This document shows, in pieces, positions 601-26,647 of a stretch of DNA of 26,647 nucleotides. The notes under the pieces were generated by a model that saw only the letters and a list, made by a program, of their open reading frames with translations, had not been told where the DNA came from and made no database searches. The stretch is from a virus: the IMG/VR virus record IMGVR_UViG_3300048836_000701, positions 1 to 26,647 of that record. One strand, written 5' to 3'. A program made the position numbers and the translations under genes. How positions within the stretch are numbered: the stretch's first letter is position 1; the number at the start of each line of letters is the position of its first letter.

Positions 601-2100
601 TCAGGGTGCATCCACCGCGCTGGTGCCGGGCAGGAAACGATAGTAAACCTCCAGCATCAGGGTGTTCAGGCAGGTCCGGTAGTGGGCGTTGGTGGTGAAT
701 TGGGGGGCCACCGCACGGATTTTCGCTCCGCCGCCGGGAACCTTCCAGGAGCCGTCCGGATTCTGGTTGTTGAGCAGTTGGTCGCGGAAGATGGCGTTGT
801 AGCTGCGCCAGGCTTTGCCGCCACGGTTCATCATCGCCTGGGCCTCGTAATAGTGGCCGTAGAGGTCGGAAAAGCCGGTGTTGTAGTCGAATCTCGTGTG
901 GGTCGCGATGTATTCCGAGCCTTTGCGCGCGGCCGGCAGGGCTCCCTTGGCCCACAGTTGCAGGCAGAGCACGCCGCCGCCGGTCATCGTCCGGTAGCCT
1001 TCGGCATGCGGGGATTCATCGGCCTTGACGTAGGCGAAACCGCCGTCGCGACACTGGAGGCTCGCGACGTAAGCGAGGGACTTTTTTACGGATTTGACGA
1101 GTCCGGTGAATTCCAACCCGGTGTGCCTGCACGCCTTCAATGCCTGGAGTTGCCAGGCGGTGATTGACAGGTCGCCGCCGCGGGCGCTGGTGGTATCGAA
1201 CGAATAGTCCCAGCCGCCGGTGTTGCGGTTTTGGTTGTCGACGATGAGTTGTCCGGCTTTTTGGGTGATTTCCTTGAGGTTTGGGATTTCGACGCGCTCT
1301 GCATTGCAAAAGGTGGTGGCTTCGGCGAGTGCGTAGGTGGCGATGGCATGTTCGTAGGGCCAGTGTTTTTCGGCGGGGTTGGTGCTGAGCTTGCCATCGT
1401 TTTTCATGCCCACGTTGACGAGCCAGATGATGGCGCGCAGGCAGGAGTCACCATAGTCCTTGGAAAGCGGGGTTTCACAGTGGCCGAGGTAGGCCAGCAG
1501 CGCGAGGCCGGTCATCGCCGACGGGTTGCTGCCGGTCCAGGAGCCGTCGGAGTTCTGGGTGGCTTTCAACCAGTCGAGTGCCTTGATGACGGCATCCTCA
1601 CATTGCGGGTTGCCGCCGGTTTCCTGCAAGCGGGCGAGTCGGTCTTCTTTCGAGCAGCGCTTCCGGTGACTCGGCGGAAACCCTGGTGGCCCGGTCCCTG
1701 ATTCGTTGCCGGAACCCCAGGAATCGCCGAAACCATTGGAATCGCCGAACTCGACCGTGGGCACGCTGACGTCGAAATCCGTGACCGGAACCGCCACCGG
1801 CGAAATCGTCGCTGCCGCCAGCACTTTGAGCCGCGATGAACTGGGCGAGCTGGGTTTGGGTTTTTCCGTCACAAACTTCGGGCTGTCGAGCGGAGGGTCC
1901 GGGTCGAATTTTTCCTCGGGAGTGATGACGGTGATGTCCGCTTGGTTCTTGGAAAATTCCGGCAGCAGGACAACCCCGAGAATCAGGGTGATCAGCACGA
2001 CGACAAGAGACGCGATGACGATCGAGGAGATGCTCGAGTTTCTCCGTTGGGCGTGAAGCCGTTGTTGGGCTTCGAGGGTGGATTCGGCGTGCAGGCTCAT
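601..2100 (-). CDS. Membrane-anchored prenyltransferase/squalene-cyclase-like repeat protein
   Basis: 499 aa. Residues 24-47 form one transmembrane helix (ISSIVIASLVVVLITLILGV). A low-complexity linker of about 100 residues, rich in Pro, Ser, Gly and Asp, follows. From about residue 165 the protein shows alpha/alpha-toroid repeats of the terpene-cyclase/prenyltransferase fold, each with a QxxDGxW/F motif: QNSDGSW, QCRDGGF and QNPDGSW. The DXDD cyclase signature is not obvious, so terpene cyclisation should not be assumed. Proteins of this layout are abundant in Verrucomicrobiota and Planctomycetota and mostly uncharacterised. The topology suggests a cytoplasmic N-terminus and a periplasmic repeat domain. 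A truncated paralogue lies just downstream, and a prepilin-type gene is divergent. The ATG at 2100 is supported by the identical MSLHAE start in the paralogue. No Shine-Dalgarno site is seen (AAACACC before ATG). Confidence 0.85.
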   Translation of the reverse strand: MSLHAESTLEAQQRLHAQRRNSSISSIVIASLVVVLITLILGVVLLPEFSKNQADITVITPEEKFDPDPPLDSPKFVTEKPKPSSPSSSRLKVLAAATISPVAVPVTDFDVSVPTVEFGDSNGFGDSWGSGNESGTGPPGFPPSHRKRCSKEDRLARLQETGGNPQCEDAVIKALDWLKATQNSDGSWTGSNPSAMTGLALLAYLGHCETPLSKDYGDSCLRAIIWLVNVGMKNDGKLSTNPAEKHWPYEHAIATYALAEATTFCNAERVEIPNLKEITQKAGQLIVDNQNRNTGGWDYSFDTTSARGGDLSITAWQLQALKACRHTGLEFTGLVKSVKKSLAYVASLQCRDGGFAYVKADESPHAEGYRTMTGGGVLCLQLWAKGALPAARKGSEYIATHTRFDYNTGFSDLYGHYYEAQAMMNRGGKAWRSYNAIFRDQLLNNQNPDGSWKVPGGGAKIRAVAPQFTTNAHYRTCLNTLMLEVYYRFLPGTSAVDAP

Positions 2101-11839: not shown

Positions 11840-12319
11840 TTAGGAGTCCGCCATGGGGGTAGGGCCATACAGCAGGATCGTGGTTTTGAAGACGGCCTGG
11901 CGGATCACGTAGTCGTCATCCTCCACATCCTCGAAGTCCTCGAGCTGGAGGGAATAGTGCAGAGCGCTGCGTCCCAGCGGGGACTCCTGCAGCCGCATCA
12001 CCATCGCTTCCCAGCGCGTGTCCTCGTCCACCTCCGGATCGGACTCGTCCACTTCCGGATCCACGTTGGGAGTTTCGAGCAGGGTCACCGGAATCGTCAG
12101 CTCGATGCGCAGCCGCTTCCCGCCCTGGGTCTTCGTCAGGGAGCGCCCCTTGGCCACGCCGATCACCAGGCACTGGCCGCGCGCACTCGCCGCGCAGGCC
12201 ACCGCCACATCGTTCCAGATGTCCGTGCGGCGCTTGATCAGCACCTCATCCGCGTGCCACAGACCATCCACGGTGAGAATCTCGCGGATGACCTTGCGCA
12301 CTTGATAGATCTTACTCAT
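11840..12319 (-). CDS. Probable neck / tail-completion protein
   Basis: 159 aa with a basic N-terminal region (KIYQVRKVIREILTVDGLWH), a beta-rich centre and a very acidic segment (DPEVDESDPEVDEDTRW). It follows the gpG-like gene with a 4-bp ATGA overlap and precedes the tail tube gene, the usual slot for head-tail joining or tail-terminator proteins. I do not recognise a specific family. The call is by position. Confidence 0.55.
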   Translation of the reverse strand: MSKIYQVRKVIREILTVDGLWHADEVLIKRRTDIWNDVAVACAASARGQCLVIGVAKGRSLTKTQGGKRLRIELTIPVTLLETPNVDPEVDESDPEVDEDTRWEAMVMRLQESPLGRSALHYSLQLEDFEDVEDDDYVIRQAVFKTTILLYGPTPMADS

Positions 12320-13017
12320 GCCGGACCCCCTTCGTTAAGCGCCGCCACGTAGTCATCCGCCTCTTGCTGCAGCGCGGTGAGCAGCGCCTCGTCATTCGGC
12401 AGCGCGTCGGGATCCTTGGCGATCGTCACGGACTTCCTGAGCGCGAATACCGCGCGCACTCCCGTCCGTGAAATCAAGCCCACGCTCTTGCTCGTGCCAT
12501 TGCGCCGCCGCACCCGGCCGATCAAGCCGGGCTCCAGGCTGCCCCGCGTTTCCGGGCCGGTCCGCTCGAACAGCGCGTTCTTGCCCCGGATCGTGAAGAG
12601 TTTCTTGCCGGTCTCGGACTGATAGTTATACGCCCGCTTGCCCAGCGCCTCGCGGATCAGCGGGATCGTCAGCGCCTTCTTGCCCGGGCCGGGCAGGATC
12701 GTCCCGCCGAAGAGGTGGATGTTAAAGTGATTGGTCCCCACCGCCACCGTCGCCCCGCTCTCGGTGATGGTTTCCAGCTTGGTGGCATCCGCCATCCGCT
12801 GCCAGAACTCCGTCTTCGGCCCGCCCAGCTTGTCCGCCAGGGAGCCCGGCCGTTTACCCGCCGCGTTCTTGGCGCGGAAGTGGCCTTTGATTTCCTCTGC
12901 CAGCCGCAGTCCCAGCGCTTCATTGAGTGCGCGCCGGTCACCCAGATCGGCGGATAGGATCACCAGAAACGCCCTCGTTTCCGCCGCTCCGCTGTTTGTC
13001 ACTTGCACCGTGATCAT
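12316..13017 (-). CDS. Phage virion morphogenesis protein, Mu gpG-like
   Basis: 233 aa from the ATG at 13017. The longer frame starting at 13110 is rejected because this ATG has a strong ribosome site (GGAAAGGAG, spacing about 7) and starts MITVQVTN. The N-terminal helix ending LGLRLAEEIKGHFRAKN and the later KKALTIPL are typical of the Mu gpG/tail-completion family, which acts in head-tail joining. The C-terminal 40 residues form an acidic Ala/Leu-rich helix. It follows the MuF-like gene, as G follows F in Mu, although a plus-strand gene has been inserted between them. Confidence 0.7.
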   Translation of the reverse strand: MITVQVTNSGAAETRAFLVILSADLGDRRALNEALGLRLAEEIKGHFRAKNAAGKRPGSLADKLGGPKTEFWQRMADATKLETITESGATVAVGTNHFNIHLFGGTILPGPGKKALTIPLIREALGKRAYNYQSETGKKLFTIRGKNALFERTGPETRGSLEPGLIGRVRRRNGTSKSVGLISRTGVRAVFALRKSVTIAKDPDALPNDEALLTALQQEADDYVAALNEGGPA

Positions 13018-13035: not shown

Positions 13036-13064
13036 TTGCCGGCGCTCGCTTCGCGTGGTAACAG
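13036..13064 (+). promoter_or_regulatory. Possible promoter for the lone plus-strand gene
   Basis: TTGCCG (13036-13041) and TAACAG (13059-13064) are separated by exactly 17 bp. The predicted start of transcription falls at or next to the ATG at 13072, so the transcript could be leaderless. The hexamers are imperfect. Confidence 0.35.
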
Positions 13065-13071
13065 TGCCCGC

Positions 13072-13263
13072 ATGACAGGAGTCAAGCCGCGCACCAAAAT
13101 GATCGCCCATATCAAGGCGGAGCTGGGCGTCGACGATGTCACCGCCGCCAGATACTCCAAGCTGCTGGGTGACACATACGAAACTTCCGAAGATGGAAAG
13201 AAGTTCGTGATACGTGACGAAAAGGGCATCATCCTCGCGCTCCTTTCCATCCAGCCTGCTTGA
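13072..13263 (+). CDS. Lone plus-strand small protein (63 aa), moron or immunity candidate
   Basis: This is the only plus-strand gene that I can support inside the phage. The ATG at 13072 gives MTGVKPRTKMIAHIKAELGV, then DDVTAARYSKLLGD, a helical N-terminal half, and DGKKFVIRDEKGIILALLSI, two C-terminal strands. Sequence composition is that of a folded soluble protein and not of a GC-rich shadow frame. It fills the 211-bp gap between two minus-strand genes and overlaps the end of the MuF-metallopeptidase gene by 35 bp. A longer frame from 13003 is less likely. A promoter of its own would allow expression in the lysogen. The function is unknown. An antitoxin or immunity role for the adjacent metallopeptidase domain is a hypothesis only. 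Confidence 0.6.
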   Translation: MTGVKPRTKMIAHIKAELGVDDVTAARYSKLLGDTYETSEDGKKFVIRDEKGIILALLSIQPA

Positions 13264-14833
13264 AGAGTGCTCTCATCAGCGCCTTGATTGATCGGAACTC
13301 CGTGGAGTTCCAATGAAGCTCTCTCGGAAATCCCTCTGCCTCGAACTCACCTTTGCGGAATCTTGTTAGCCCGCTCTTCAGCAGCGCGTCGTCGCTCTCT
13401 TCGATGATGAATTGCGCATAGGCCCGGGCGAACAATTCCTGCCGTTCCAGAATGTCCGCATCCTCGCCATAGCGCGCCGCCAGTCTCGAGACCGCGCTCG
13501 TTTCGCGCAAGGCCTTGATCAGCGCGTCGAGTTCCGGCTGGCCGTTGGAGGCATAGGCCCGGGCCGCGGTCGGAACATGCAGCCCCAGATTGTCGAGCAA
13601 GTGTCCCGTTTCATGCAGGATAACCAGGCCAATGGGCAGCTCTGTGGCAGGATCCACGTTGATTTCCACCCGCTCCCCGCCGCCCAGGGATTTCTTATAG
13701 AGTGCGGGATCTTCCTGGTATCTTGAAACCTTGCGGAAAACCACCTGCAGATCCGGCAGCACGCCGTCCTGGTGAATTTGGTTCGCGGCTGTCAGCGCGG
13801 CCTCCGCTTGTGCGATCAAGTCCGGGTATTCCTCCGCAGGCCGCACCGTGATCACCTCAGTGAGCGGTCTGCCATCCGGTGTCTGTGGCGGGCGGGATGT
13901 CCTGTCCAGCTCGGCATCCTGCTGCTGCCACTTCCGAATCCCGCGCGGCCGCGCGCGGCTCATCGCATCACCACCCTGTGGTGGCAGCAACCGGATCACA
14001 TCGCCCTCGATCTCCACGTCCCCCAGGAACGCGTCCTCGATCGCGCGGCGCCGTGCCGGGGAAATCCCTTTCAGGCTCGCCTCCGCACCGGAATTGAACG
14101 GCACCTTTTCCGGCGCTTGGGGCGGATCTCCCGCCTTGATCACGCCAAGCGCCAGCGCCTCACGCCGGCCCACGTTCCGGGTCCCCATTCCACTGCCCCA
14201 GTCAAAGGGTTTCCACGGCACCCCGAAGCGGTTCAGCGCCGGCCAGATCGGATCATTCCTCAGCGCGATCATGCGGCCCTCCGGATACTCGGCCGGTCCC
14301 GGGTAAAACTTCCCTCCCAGGGCTTTCCACTTCACGTTCCAGCGTCGCCGTTCCAGTCGGTTTTCCAGGCGGATGAATTCCATCGCCGGCCACATCCGCA
14401 ACGCCACGTCCGACTGTCCCGTCTTCCATTGCGCGTAGCCTTGCGCCTGGTCCAGGTTCATCTGCCAGATCAGCTCCAGCCGCCGCGTGCTTGTGAAGTC
14501 CTGCAGCGTGCCCTTCTTCTTTGGATCCGGCCGGTAGCCCGCCTTCTTGAATTCCTGGCGCATCCGCTCGATGAACAGCCCACGGTCCATGAACACGCCC
14601 TCGCCACCGCCTGCCAGCTTCTCGCGCTCCATCGCGATGAACTGCCGGATCTTCGCCTGCAGCGAGGCCGCCATCCGCTCGTCTTCCAGCCGCGCCGCCC
14701 ACATCGTCCGCAGCCGGATCTCCGCCGGCACAGCATCCCACTCCGCAGACGAGAGCGCATTCCCCATCGGCGTCCGCCGGGAAATCTGATCCACCGCATC
14801 CTGCAGTGGCATCGCTGTAGTAAAATCAATCAT
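13229..14833 (-). CDS. MuF-type head morphogenesis protein fused to an HETGH metallopeptidase-like domain
   Basis: 534 aa. The N-terminal 270 residues match the phage head-morphogenesis (Mu gpF / SPP1 gp7) type: basic helices, RMWPAMEFIRL, YPEGRMIALRNDPIWPALN, then FGVPWKPFDWGSGMG. Such proteins sit at the portal and can be injected with DNA. Residues 270-320 are a linker. The C-terminal domain contains LVILHETGHLLDN with the zincin motif H407-E408-T409-G410-H411, and later RQELFARAYAQFI, whose Glu466 could be the third zinc ligand, as in phage and polymorphic-toxin metallopeptidase domains (LPD1-like). MuF proteins with C-terminal toxin domains are known in temperate phages. The substrate is unknown. 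Unlike in Mu, the gene lies after the capsid genes. Confidence 0.75.
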   Translation of the reverse strand: MIDFTTAMPLQDAVDQISRRTPMGNALSSAEWDAVPAEIRLRTMWAARLEDERMAASLQAKIRQFIAMEREKLAGGGEGVFMDRGLFIERMRQEFKKAGYRPDPKKKGTLQDFTSTRRLELIWQMNLDQAQGYAQWKTGQSDVALRMWPAMEFIRLENRLERRRWNVKWKALGGKFYPGPAEYPEGRMIALRNDPIWPALNRFGVPWKPFDWGSGMGTRNVGRREALALGVIKAGDPPQAPEKVPFNSGAEASLKGISPARRRAIEDAFLGDVEIEGDVIRLLPPQGGDAMSRARPRGIRKWQQQDAELDRTSRPPQTPDGRPLTEVITVRPAEEYPDLIAQAEAALTAANQIHQDGVLPDLQVVFRKVSRYQEDPALYKKSLGGGERVEINVDPATELPIGLVILHETGHLLDNLGLHVPTAARAYASNGQPELDALIKALRETSAVSRLAARYGEDADILERQELFARAYAQFIIEESDDALLKSGLTRFRKGEFEAEGFPRELHWNSTEFRSIKALMRALFKQAGWKGARG

Positions 14834-18452: not shown

Positions 18453-20627
18453 TCAGATGGTTTCTTCTTCGCGTCCCTTCGCGGACTTTGCGCCTTTGCG
18501 GTTCAAATCCTCTTGCCGGATCCCGTCCCGCGTGCCGATCAGCACCGCCGTCCCCATCGCCGCTTCCAGGTCCGCGGCCAGCGCCTCGGCATCCGCCGGG
18601 TCGAACAGCTCGGGAAACGTCTCCGCCGCGTCCTCCACGAATTGCAACCAGGTTGCATCGTCGATTCCGGCTTCCTGCGATCTCCCCGCAAGCCCCGAAA
18701 TCAGATCATCGATCGGGTCTAACATCCCGCTCCGGACGCCGAGCGCCCCCGCGAGCGATTTCGTGAACAGTTGCTCGAAATCATCGCCGCCTCCATCATC
18801 GAGATCTTCCCGGATGCTGTTACGGATCGGCGTCGTTTCCTGCAGCGTGCTCGCCATCGTCAGGATCAGCCCGATGGCATGCAGCGCGGGAGCCTTGATC
18901 CGGAACACGGGGATTGGCTTGTTGGGAGCGTCCTGCAGCGCGGCGAGGTATTGCCCGTCCACCACATGGTGGTCGGAGGAAATGAGCAGTGCACGTTGCG
19001 GGCCAGCGTGTTCCCGCGCCTTTTCCACCTTCGCCGGGCAATACTCCGCCTGCGTCGGCTTCAGATCCGCCGGCTTCATTTCCAGCTTCTCATAGTCCAC
19101 GCCGTGACGGCGCAGCATGTTCACCATTGCCGCCCGGTTGCCGCTCTTGATCTGCGGCATGATGGTGCGCGGGATTTCAAGCGTGCCTGTTTCCCTGGCG
19201 AACGTTTTCCAAACACTCCCATCCGCCGCCACCCGGTTCAAAATCTTCTCTCCAGCCTCTTGCGTCTTCAAGTCTTGCCTCTTGCGTCTCACCGGATACC
19301 CCGTCTTCTCCTCGATCCACTTCTCGTCCGCCTCCAGCCCAGCACCTTCCAGGGAAACGATATCCTTCACCACTTGCGCCGGATCCATCTCCTCATTGGC
19401 TGCCAGTTCGAAGTAAGCATAAGCATCCTCCCCTGGTGTCACCCGCTCGATGATCTCCGCATCCAGGCACTTCCGGAAAATCTCGCTGATCTCCGCCGCT
19501 TCCGCCCGGGCGATCGCCTGGAACGTCTCCGCATGCACGCTGCCGCCCAGCGTGCCGCTGCCGCTCTCCGCCAGCATCGTGAGCTTGCCGCCGGTACCGC
19601 GCAGTACCACCTGTTCGTCCTGGTAGGCGATGTGGTCTTTAAAGGGATTGTTTCCGCGCGCTCCGTTGTCCACGGTTTTGACATCGGATCCGCCCGGCAG
19701 CACGCCGCGGGCATCGCCCGTCACCTGGTCCGCCATTTCCAGGTATTCGTCGGACTTCTCCTCCGGCACATCCTCCGGCATCACGATGAACACCGCCGGG
19801 ATCCCATAAGTCTCGATGAAGCCGTCCCAGTCCTTCTGGCTGAGCGCCTTTCTAACAAACGCGATGAGTGCCACCCGGTTGATCGGCCGCGAGACCTCGC
19901 GCGAGACAAACCTCGGCTCCGGCACATCCTCGCCGCGGTTCGTGCCCAGGGTGGATCCCGCATTGAGCTGCCAGCGGCCGTAGAGGCCCTGCCGCACCCA
20001 GAACCACTGATCCACCGGTGCCAGCTCCACCACCTCCCCGTTTTCATCCGTCACCTTCTCCAGCCGCGCGTAACCGCGGAAGCTCGCCATCGCCAGCGCC
20101 TCGAATGCGGCTGATAGATTTTCAATCCGCTGGTATCCGGCCTTCAGCGCGGCCGCCTGGCGTTCCGCCACAGCTTCTTTCCCGGCCGGGATCTCGGACC
20201 GAGTCTTGATGTCCCAGTCCAACTCCTGGATCGCGCTTGTCCTGCGCTCCACCAGTGCGCCGAGCGTCGCGTCCTGCATCTCGATGTAGCGGAATGTCCA
20301 CTGCAGGTCCGCCATCGCCCCGCGCTCGCCGTCTTCGAGCATCTGCACCGCCCGTGCGATCGTAAGGCTGCGCAACGGATTGTAGCTGTCCCGCCACTGG
20401 TTCGCGCTCGCCACATGCAGCCGGTAATTGACCGTGTTCAGCGCACGGTTCATGATCGCCCCCATCCGGGACAAAAATCCCCCCCTGGAGGCCGTTTTCG
20501 GGCTTGCCAGCGTCCTCACGCCCGTCCTCCTTCCCGCCGCAGGGCCAGACCCCATTGCATTTCGCGGCAAACCCATTGCAGATTTGTTTTCGGGCGCGTC
20601 AGGCGCAATGGTGCCATATCGGCCCAC
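18453..20627 (-). CDS. DUF935 portal protein (Mu gp29-like) with C-terminal ParB-like domain
   Basis: 724 aa from a GTG at 20627. Residues 80-445 match the Mu gp29/DUF935 portal family: YNPLRSLTIARAVQMLED, AIQELDWDIKT, ETYGIPAVFIV, GDARGVLPGGSDVK, then SVHAETFQAIARAEAAEI. About residues 522-590 (KPTQAEYCPAKVEKARE, LLISSDHHVVDGQYLAAL, PIPVFRIKAP) look like the ParB/sulfiredoxin-type domain, although the usual DGHHR is DGQY here. The C-terminal 15 residues and residues 446-458 are encoded by dispersed repeats. The start is uncertain: the GTG is inside a run of eight G in the transcript. ATG codons at 20576 and 20465 (MGAIMNRALN) are alternatives, the latter after another G7 run. The protein forms the DNA-entry vertex. 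Confidence 0.8.
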   Translation of the reverse strand: MGRYGTIAPDAPENKSAMGLPRNAMGSGPAAGRRTGVRTLASPKTASRGGFLSRMGAIMNRALNTVNYRLHVASANQWRDSYNPLRSLTIARAVQMLEDGERGAMADLQWTFRYIEMQDATLGALVERRTSAIQELDWDIKTRSEIPAGKEAVAERQAAALKAGYQRIENLSAAFEALAMASFRGYARLEKVTDENGEVVELAPVDQWFWVRQGLYGRWQLNAGSTLGTNRGEDVPEPRFVSREVSRPINRVALIAFVRKALSQKDWDGFIETYGIPAVFIVMPEDVPEEKSDEYLEMADQVTGDARGVLPGGSDVKTVDNGARGNNPFKDHIAYQDEQVVLRGTGGKLTMLAESGSGTLGGSVHAETFQAIARAEAAEISEIFRKCLDAEIIERVTPGEDAYAYFELAANEEMDPAQVVKDIVSLEGAGLEADEKWIEEKTGYPVRRKRQDLKTQEAGEKILNRVAADGSVWKTFARETGTLEIPRTIMPQIKSGNRAAMVNMLRRHGVDYEKLEMKPADLKPTQAEYCPAKVEKAREHAGPQRALLISSDHHVVDGQYLAALQDAPNKPIPVFRIKAPALHAIGLILTMASTLQETTPIRNSIREDLDDGGGDDFEQLFTKSLAGALGVRSGMLDPIDDLISGLAGRSQEAGIDDATWLQFVEDAAETFPELFDPADAEALAADLEAAMGTAVLIGTRDGIRQEDLNRKGAKSAKGREEETI
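18467..18506. repeat. Dispersed repeat, family A, copy 1 (encodes portal C-terminus)
   Basis: Plus strand CTTCGCGTCCCTTCGCGGAC, then TTTGCGCCTTTGCGGTTCAA. It aligns with 24031-24069 with only a few differences. On the minus strand it supplies the portal end NRKGAKSAKGREE. The element resembles repeats common in intergenic DNA of Verrucomicrobiota and Planctomycetota. Confidence 0.75.
19255..19290. repeat. Dispersed repeat, family B, copy inside the portal gene
   Basis: The 22 bp at 19255-19276 are identical to 25055-25076, which is intergenic. The tract continues with a second CCTCTTGCGTCT. It encodes portal residues 446-458 (RRKRQDLKTQEA) in frame, just at the linker between the portal core and the ParB-like domain. 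Confidence 0.75.
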
Positions 20628-26408: not shown

Positions 26409-26647
26409 CTAGCCCAAAAAAGAGCGCAGCCGCGCCGCCGTCCCCTCCGCCTCCCGCAACTGCCGCGCCAGCTTCTCCGCCTCCGCCCGTGCGCTCTTTA
26501 GGCTCCCGGACTCCGCTGGCACCACACGCGGTTGCGGTCCGTGGCCAGTTAGGAGGAATTCCATCGAGACGCCAAGAGCCTGAGAGATCCTCAGCAGCTC
26601 TTCCGCTTTAGGCGATGCTTTCCCATTGAGGTAGCGGCTAATTGCCC
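26409..26647 (-). CDS. XRE-family HTH repressor-like protein, C-terminal part (start outside window)
   Basis: The frame enters from the right edge and stops with TAG at 26411-26409; 78 residues are visible. The first part is the second half of an HTH_3/XRE domain: AISRYLNGKASPKAEELLRI, then SQALGVSMEFLLTG, with the usual 'i..yl.G...P....l..ia.aL.vs..yLl.G' spacing. A proline-rich linker and a charged coiled-coil helix (LKSARAEAEKLARQLREAEG) follow, suited to dimerisation. No peptidase S24 domain is present, so it is not a LexA/CI-type self-cleaving repressor. A phage repressor or Ner-like role is inferred from position. Confidence 0.75.
   Translation of the reverse strand, partial: AISRYLNGKASPKAEELLRISQALGVSMEFLLTGHGPQPRVVPAESGSLKSARAEAEKLARQLREAEGTAARLRSFLG

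Follow-up and report, generated by a model that had tools for sequence, protein, structure and literature searches.

The window analysed here is the whole of a 26,647-nucleotide stretch, positions 1 to 26,647 of the IMG/VR virus record IMGVR_UViG_3300048836_000701. On its minus strand, a gene at 13,229–14,833 encodes a 534-residue MuF-like head protein, made up of a conserved N-terminal part and a C-terminal zincin tail (residues 286–534; 13,232–13,978, minus strand). Converging on the 3′ end of this gene is a plus-strand ORF for a protein of 63 amino acids (13,072–13,263), the proposed antidote of the zincin tail. It begins with ATG and overlaps the head-protein gene by 35 bp, as originally described. 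The ORF lies in a 211-bp space bounded on one side by the stop codon of the head-protein gene and on the other, at 13,017, by the start of the minus-strand gene that comes next. That neighbour (12,316–13,017, minus strand) is a virion-morphogenesis gene of the gpG or tail-completion-like kind, a relative of which (in locus L089) matches Phage_tail_S; its 5′ end lies beside the −35 element of the small gene. The original prediction had the small gene as the only one on the plus strand, which is true of the phage part but not of the whole window, since a second plus-strand gene is found at 2259–2972.

The record also contains genes for a Mu-type portal (18,453–20,627), a head maturation protease, a major head protein, a head-tail adaptor and an endolysin, together with a weak terminase match. 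At its left end are a squalene-hopene-cyclase-like repeat protein (601–2100, minus strand) and a host-like pseudopilin with an N-methylation motif, encoded by the plus-strand gene at 2259–2972. As genes of these kinds are typical of a host chromosome, the phage is probably integrated in a verrucomicrobial chromosome. At the other end of the record, an apparent truncated helix-turn-helix protein of the XRE type (26,560–26,647, minus strand) is possibly a phage regulator.

The tail of the head protein was predicted to be zincin-like, with a HETGH motif at residues 407–411 (13,601–13,615, minus strand) and a downstream glutamate in the sequence ELFARAY, and both the motif and the glutamate were confirmed. 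The glutamate is E466, and the H, E and H of the metal-binding motif are invariant in the four intact tails known among relatives with the same N-terminus. An AlphaFold2 model of the tail (five relatives) has a pTM of 0.74 and a core pLDDT mostly between 80 and 93. It consists of a helix (model residues 52–68), three strands (77–81, 95–97 and 104–108), a helix carrying HETGH (116–132) and a helix carrying ELFARAY (179–194). The model thus contains the features of a gluzincin-like zincin: an N-terminal helix, a three-stranded sheet, the HExxH helix and a glutamate in a later helix. The best-matching solved structures were the PPEP Pro-Pro endopeptidases and lethal-factor-type metallopeptidases, with VIA Z scores of 8 to 9.5 over approximately 150–165 residues (top match 6fpc, Z 9.5). 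Foldseek alone gave an E value of 0.02 at best, so the likeness of the modelled tail to PPEP and lethal factor is taken as a resemblance of fold only. Sequence searches against solved structures gave nothing credible, and the Pfam profiles for polyvalent-protein metallopeptidases gave only sub-threshold LPD1 matches over the half of the domain containing the glutamate.

The N-terminal part of the head protein gave no match to Pfam families, MuF included, in the window protein or in six relatives. A profile alignment of this part with relatives that match PF04233 was weak (probability 2.8%, E 0.016). Between the head-protein gene and the portal gene lie those for the protease, a scaffold-like protein, the major head protein and others. 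The original description of the protein as MuF-type therefore draws on its position and on zincin-tailed relatives that match Phage_Mu_F, and is not confirmed by a MuF profile match of the window protein itself.

Scanning viral contigs with the 63-residue sequence alone gave no protein matches, and relatives of the small gene were reached only by way of the head protein. The head-protein relatives in viral contigs were L002 (67% identity), L003 (53%) and then L006 (43%). All three of these phage contigs have an opposite-strand ORF of 60–63 codons at the equivalent, convergent position, and its product aligns with the 63-residue protein (BLASTP E 2e-14 for L002). The family has the signature Y-A-x-x-[IL]-G-D-x-x-E-x-D-x-x-G...R-D...G. 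In the alignable core of the small gene there are 108, 74 and 146 differences at codon positions 1, 2 and 3, respectively. This order (3 > 1 > 2) is the behaviour expected of a translated frame, and shows the purifying selection that had been named as a check on the prediction. On the evidence of these sequences, the ORF is a real, conserved gene. The family is not recognised by Pfam or NCBIfam, a search of phage records for it gave no convincing match, and no Rfam families were found in the sequence. The predicted model of the small protein consists of two helices and a hairpin and is weak (pLDDT 66). A fold search with this model gave no clear match among solved folds, and with so weak a model we do not claim a new fold.

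The promoter-like sequence proposed upstream of the small gene, TTGCCG-17-TAACAG, is present, and its geometry is conserved in the relatives. It forms part of an extended sigma70-like promoter (13,036–13,064, plus strand), with TGG before the −10 element and 7 nucleotides between the end of TAACAG and the ATG. The arrangement TTGnnG-17-TAnnnn-7-ATG, with TGn before the −10, is common to all four loci (the window, L002, L003 and L006). A fifth, degraded locus in genome G699 has identical geometry and a GTG start. Among 98 loci, this fixed promoter-to-ATG pattern matched only those with a convergent small gene. In the window the extended pattern occurs once, against 0.01 occurrences expected from shuffling, for a pattern that was composed after the relatives' alignment had been compared. 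In viral contigs, a broader promoter-plus-ribosome-binding-site pattern picked up three loci that were already known, the other matches being unrelated and due to chance. The −35 element adjoins the facing gene's ribosome-binding site, and part of its conservation may stem from this. As just 7 bases separate the −10 element and the ATG, the geometry implies an mRNA that would be leaderless or nearly so.

We compared the relatives that share the N-terminus of the head protein, on which alignment, a table of tails and a tree all show the C-terminal domain to be exchangeable. The small gene was found beside intact HExxH tails in 4/4 cases and beside other tails in 0/14. This gives a Fisher p value of 3e-4 if the loci are taken as independent, which they are not fully. 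Co-occurrence with the zincin tail was thus borne out, and together with purifying selection and the conserved promoter geometry it gives good support to the proposed pairing of the two genes. Phage loci that combine the convergent gene with an intact tail number only four so far, with the degraded copies in G699 in addition. At the four loci, the small gene lies in a gap of 205–211 bp. At 10 of the 14 loci without it, the stop codon of the head protein is overlapped by the following gene or is at most 2 bp from its start, and gaps of 13–253 bp are found at the other four. Two of the loci without the small gene retain traces of a zincin. In L011, from an Akkermansia muciniphila MAG, the whole zincin domain is kept and HELGHLLDN is replaced by QAMARMMDR. 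In L013, from a Luteolibacter MAG, the catalytic core is gone and the C-terminal half survives only as a remnant; this remnant matches the zincin profile with an E value of 2e-4, compared with 0.4 or worse for unrelated tails.

In a tree of the N-terminal part, L006 groups with L013 (support 99/97), apart from the window, L002 and L003 (98/98). The intact tail with its small gene therefore occurs on at least two separate branches and at least two changes are needed, which indicates that tail and small gene were gained or lost together; the tree gives no direction of change, and its loci are only partly independent of one another. When the window is compared with L002, identity is 81% in the N-terminal part, as against 51% in the zincin tail and 37% in the small protein. 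These identities suggest that the pair of tail and small protein evolves fast.

Other arrangements were also seen. A different conserved C-terminal domain replaces the zincin tail in L007, L008, L014 and L015, and probably in L017. Loci of the L007, L008, L014 and L015 type have no small partner, and the next gene overlaps by 4 bp. A HELWH sequence in L008 was considered as a zincin motif and rejected, as it is not conserved in the near relatives L014 and L015 and the tail has no match to the zincin profile. A 4-kb contig of G699 (contig 203, L086) carries two copies of the small family, one of them facing a zincin-tail remnant.

Zincin tails were also found on another backbone. In two prophages (L089 in genome G452 and L090 in genome G546), proteins recognised by Pfam as Phage_Mu_F, and unrelated in their backbone to the window type, end in a HEIGH-bearing zincin tail. 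Each is followed by a co-directional gene of the small family, the ATG of which overlaps the zincin stop codon, and then by a virion-morphogenesis gene. Other intact zincin tails in the Verrucomicrobiales, some belonging to very large proteins (open frames of 1346 and 1993 amino acids), have a small ORF of another sort behind them on the same strand. Most of these ORFs form one helical family; when profiles were tested by leaving one out, seven of nine supported each other. This second family lies behind the zincin tails of head proteins and of large polyvalent-type proteins (L043, L045, L047–L052 and L054). We tested for homology between the two families of small partners and found none. The 63-residue family was absent beside the intact zincin tails of the Akkermansia phages Chambord and Chantilly and of several prophages. 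In Chambord and Chantilly (L037 and L038), the head-morphogenesis protein ends in an intact zincin tail bearing HEIGH, and the ORF that comes next, overlapping it, is small and acidic and belongs to a different kind. The variety of partners indicates that the combination of a zincin tail and a small partner is general in this group, and that the identity and strand of the partner vary.

The observations from which we start are the gene itself, its travel with the intact tail, its promoter geometry and the co-directional homologue behind other zincin tails. The explanation that we prefer, with a probability of about 0.68, is that the locus encodes a polymorphic protease toxin of MuF-like type, and that the antidote to it has moved from the late operon onto a promoter of its own. 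From these observations we infer a scheme of packaging, ejection, proteolysis, toxicity, neutralisation and expression of the pair, which would run as follows. Late expression would produce the head protein, and its zincin tail would be carried in or on the capsid, probably packaged. The tail would enter the next cell with the DNA and cleave a cell protein there. The 63-residue protein would bind the tail or neutralise it in some other way, a reading that we favour because the small gene tracks intact tails and recurs behind zincin tails on the other backbone. Lying opposite the late operon, under a host-type promoter of its own that leaves no space for a leader, the small gene could be expressed in the lysogen while the late genes are off. 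An antidote expressed in this way would guard the lysogen from protease arising from leaky induction or arriving with sister virions, and would also guard the producing cell at induction. Counting against this explanation are the small number of convergent loci, the weak model of the small protein, the intact zincin tails of Chambord, Chantilly and several prophages that do without the 63-residue family, and the members of that family on chromosomes and beside a restriction enzyme.

A different possibility is that the zincin serves the phage itself, as a head-assembly or self-processing protease, and that the small protein is a morphogenesis chaperone or a timing inhibitor with no role in the lysogen. 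The L089 and L090 loci fit this, because there the homologue lies inside the late operon and its start codon overlaps the zincin stop. It also fits the proposal, in the excerpts of PMC5512222 used here, that zincins of polyvalent proteins process large phage polypeptides. The window-type gene, however, has its own conserved promoter facing the late operon, which would be a poor source of supply for a late factor. Moreover, where relatives lack an intact zincin, they have a different tail or no tail, so protease activity is not needed for the head. We consider this explanation unlikely.

The small family extends beyond phages. A profile of it matched in 31 of 387 Verrucomicrobiales genomes, and most of the members are standalone chromosomal genes for proteins of 60–66 residues in ordinary neighbourhoods. 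In one host family of 68 genomes, approximately 28 have a chromosomal homologue, at a distance from any zincin gene. One member (L088, 5120–5302) lies 7 nucleotides behind a gene for a 1645-residue Type ISP restriction-modification enzyme, an arrangement in which a link to restriction control is possible. In another case (L091, 248–1239), the small-family gene lies 93 nucleotides behind one for a YgjP-like metallopeptidase, which itself comes after the apparent end of an HsdR-type restriction gene. The chromosomal homologues may be orphan immunity genes; the family may equally have another basic function, as the chromosomal copies lie apart from zincins and one member abuts the Type ISP enzyme. 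At the level of genomes, seven of 14 with a zincin also have the small family (p 2e-5); this co-occurrence was set aside as evidence, since the chromosomal copies cluster in a single family.

These chromosomal genes, and the members behind the restriction enzyme and the YgjP-type metallopeptidase, would suit a general verrucomicrobial regulator or adaptor, present at the phage locus as a passenger of the cassette or as a surrogate for the host protein under attack. A passenger, however, would not be expected to be absent where the active site has eroded (L011 and L013), nor to be found beside zincin tails on an unrelated backbone (L089 and L090). Furthermore, zincin-tailed phages occur in genomes in which no chromosomal homologue was found, for example G123 and G524. 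This account therefore seems quite improbable. That the ORF is an artefact, or an antisense element that is never translated, is hardly credible: it is short, lies opposite another gene in G+C-rich sequence and has a promoter not flagged by a simple consensus scan, but homologous proteins occur in divergent phages and chromosomes, the codon-position divergence is that of a coding frame, and the start and promoter geometry are conserved.

If the locus does encode a protease toxin with its antidote, it bears on what protects a lysogen against a virion-borne toxin when the toxin and its usual immunity gene both lie in the late operon, a matter not addressed in the excerpts of the MuF papers used here (PMC5576092 and PMC11699363). 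The locus suggests a simple and testable answer, namely an antidote gene that is convergent and has a constitutive-type promoter to itself. The small gene and the part encoding the tail are short (about 0.2 and 0.75 kb), and the relatives that lack both the active site and the partner provide a comparative contrast. Also described is a small-protein family, with members on chromosomes, that goes unrecognised by Pfam and NCBIfam. It is possible, and we put it forward tentatively, that some phages have uncoupled the antidote of a virion protease from the late operon, through a convergent position and a conserved near-leaderless promoter of host type, so that lysogens are continuously protected, and that the chromosomal homologues in one verrucomicrobial family are orphan immunity genes protecting uninfected hosts against phages armed with the protease.

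Among solved structures, the modelled tail most resembles those of PPEP and lethal-factor-type metallopeptidases, but differs from them in having only about 10–15% identity and no family-level sequence match. Zincin-like MPTase domains of polyvalent proteins were described by Iyer et al. (2017; PMC5512222), for which processing or effector roles are favoured in the excerpts used. As in those domains, HExxH and a downstream glutamate helix are found here in multidomain proteins that are, or would be, delivered by phage, and some of the relatives with an equivalent tail are likewise very large. Unlike the window tail, the polyvalent MPTases have no dedicated small partner described in those excerpts.

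The closest parallel is with the polymorphic toxins of the MuF type that temperate phages carry (Jamet et al., 2017; PMC5576092). According to the excerpted text, 20% of predicted MuF toxins have a metallopeptidase domain, and the toxins are proposed to be carried with the head and delivered with the DNA. Apk2 and Bxa are toxin-immunity pairs of this kind that have been tested (excerpts of PMC11699363). The window locus has in common with them a head protein whose C-terminal domain, here a predicted enzyme, is exchangeable, in a phage that is probably integrated. Beside the gene for this protein there is likewise a small ORF (<150 residues; here 63) for which an immunity role has been proposed or shown. 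It differs in belonging to a verrucomicrobial phage, and in that some relatives of its head protein lack both the active site and the partner. The family of the 63-residue partner is not described in the excerpts of the two MuF papers. Since the N-terminus has no MuF profile match and the gene does not adjoin the portal gene, the locus would work like the MuF toxin family by likeness rather than as a proven member. Where known MuF systems have the partner next in the operon, the window has it convergent and under a near-leaderless promoter of its own, and a convergent antidote with a separate promoter would be the new feature of this system.
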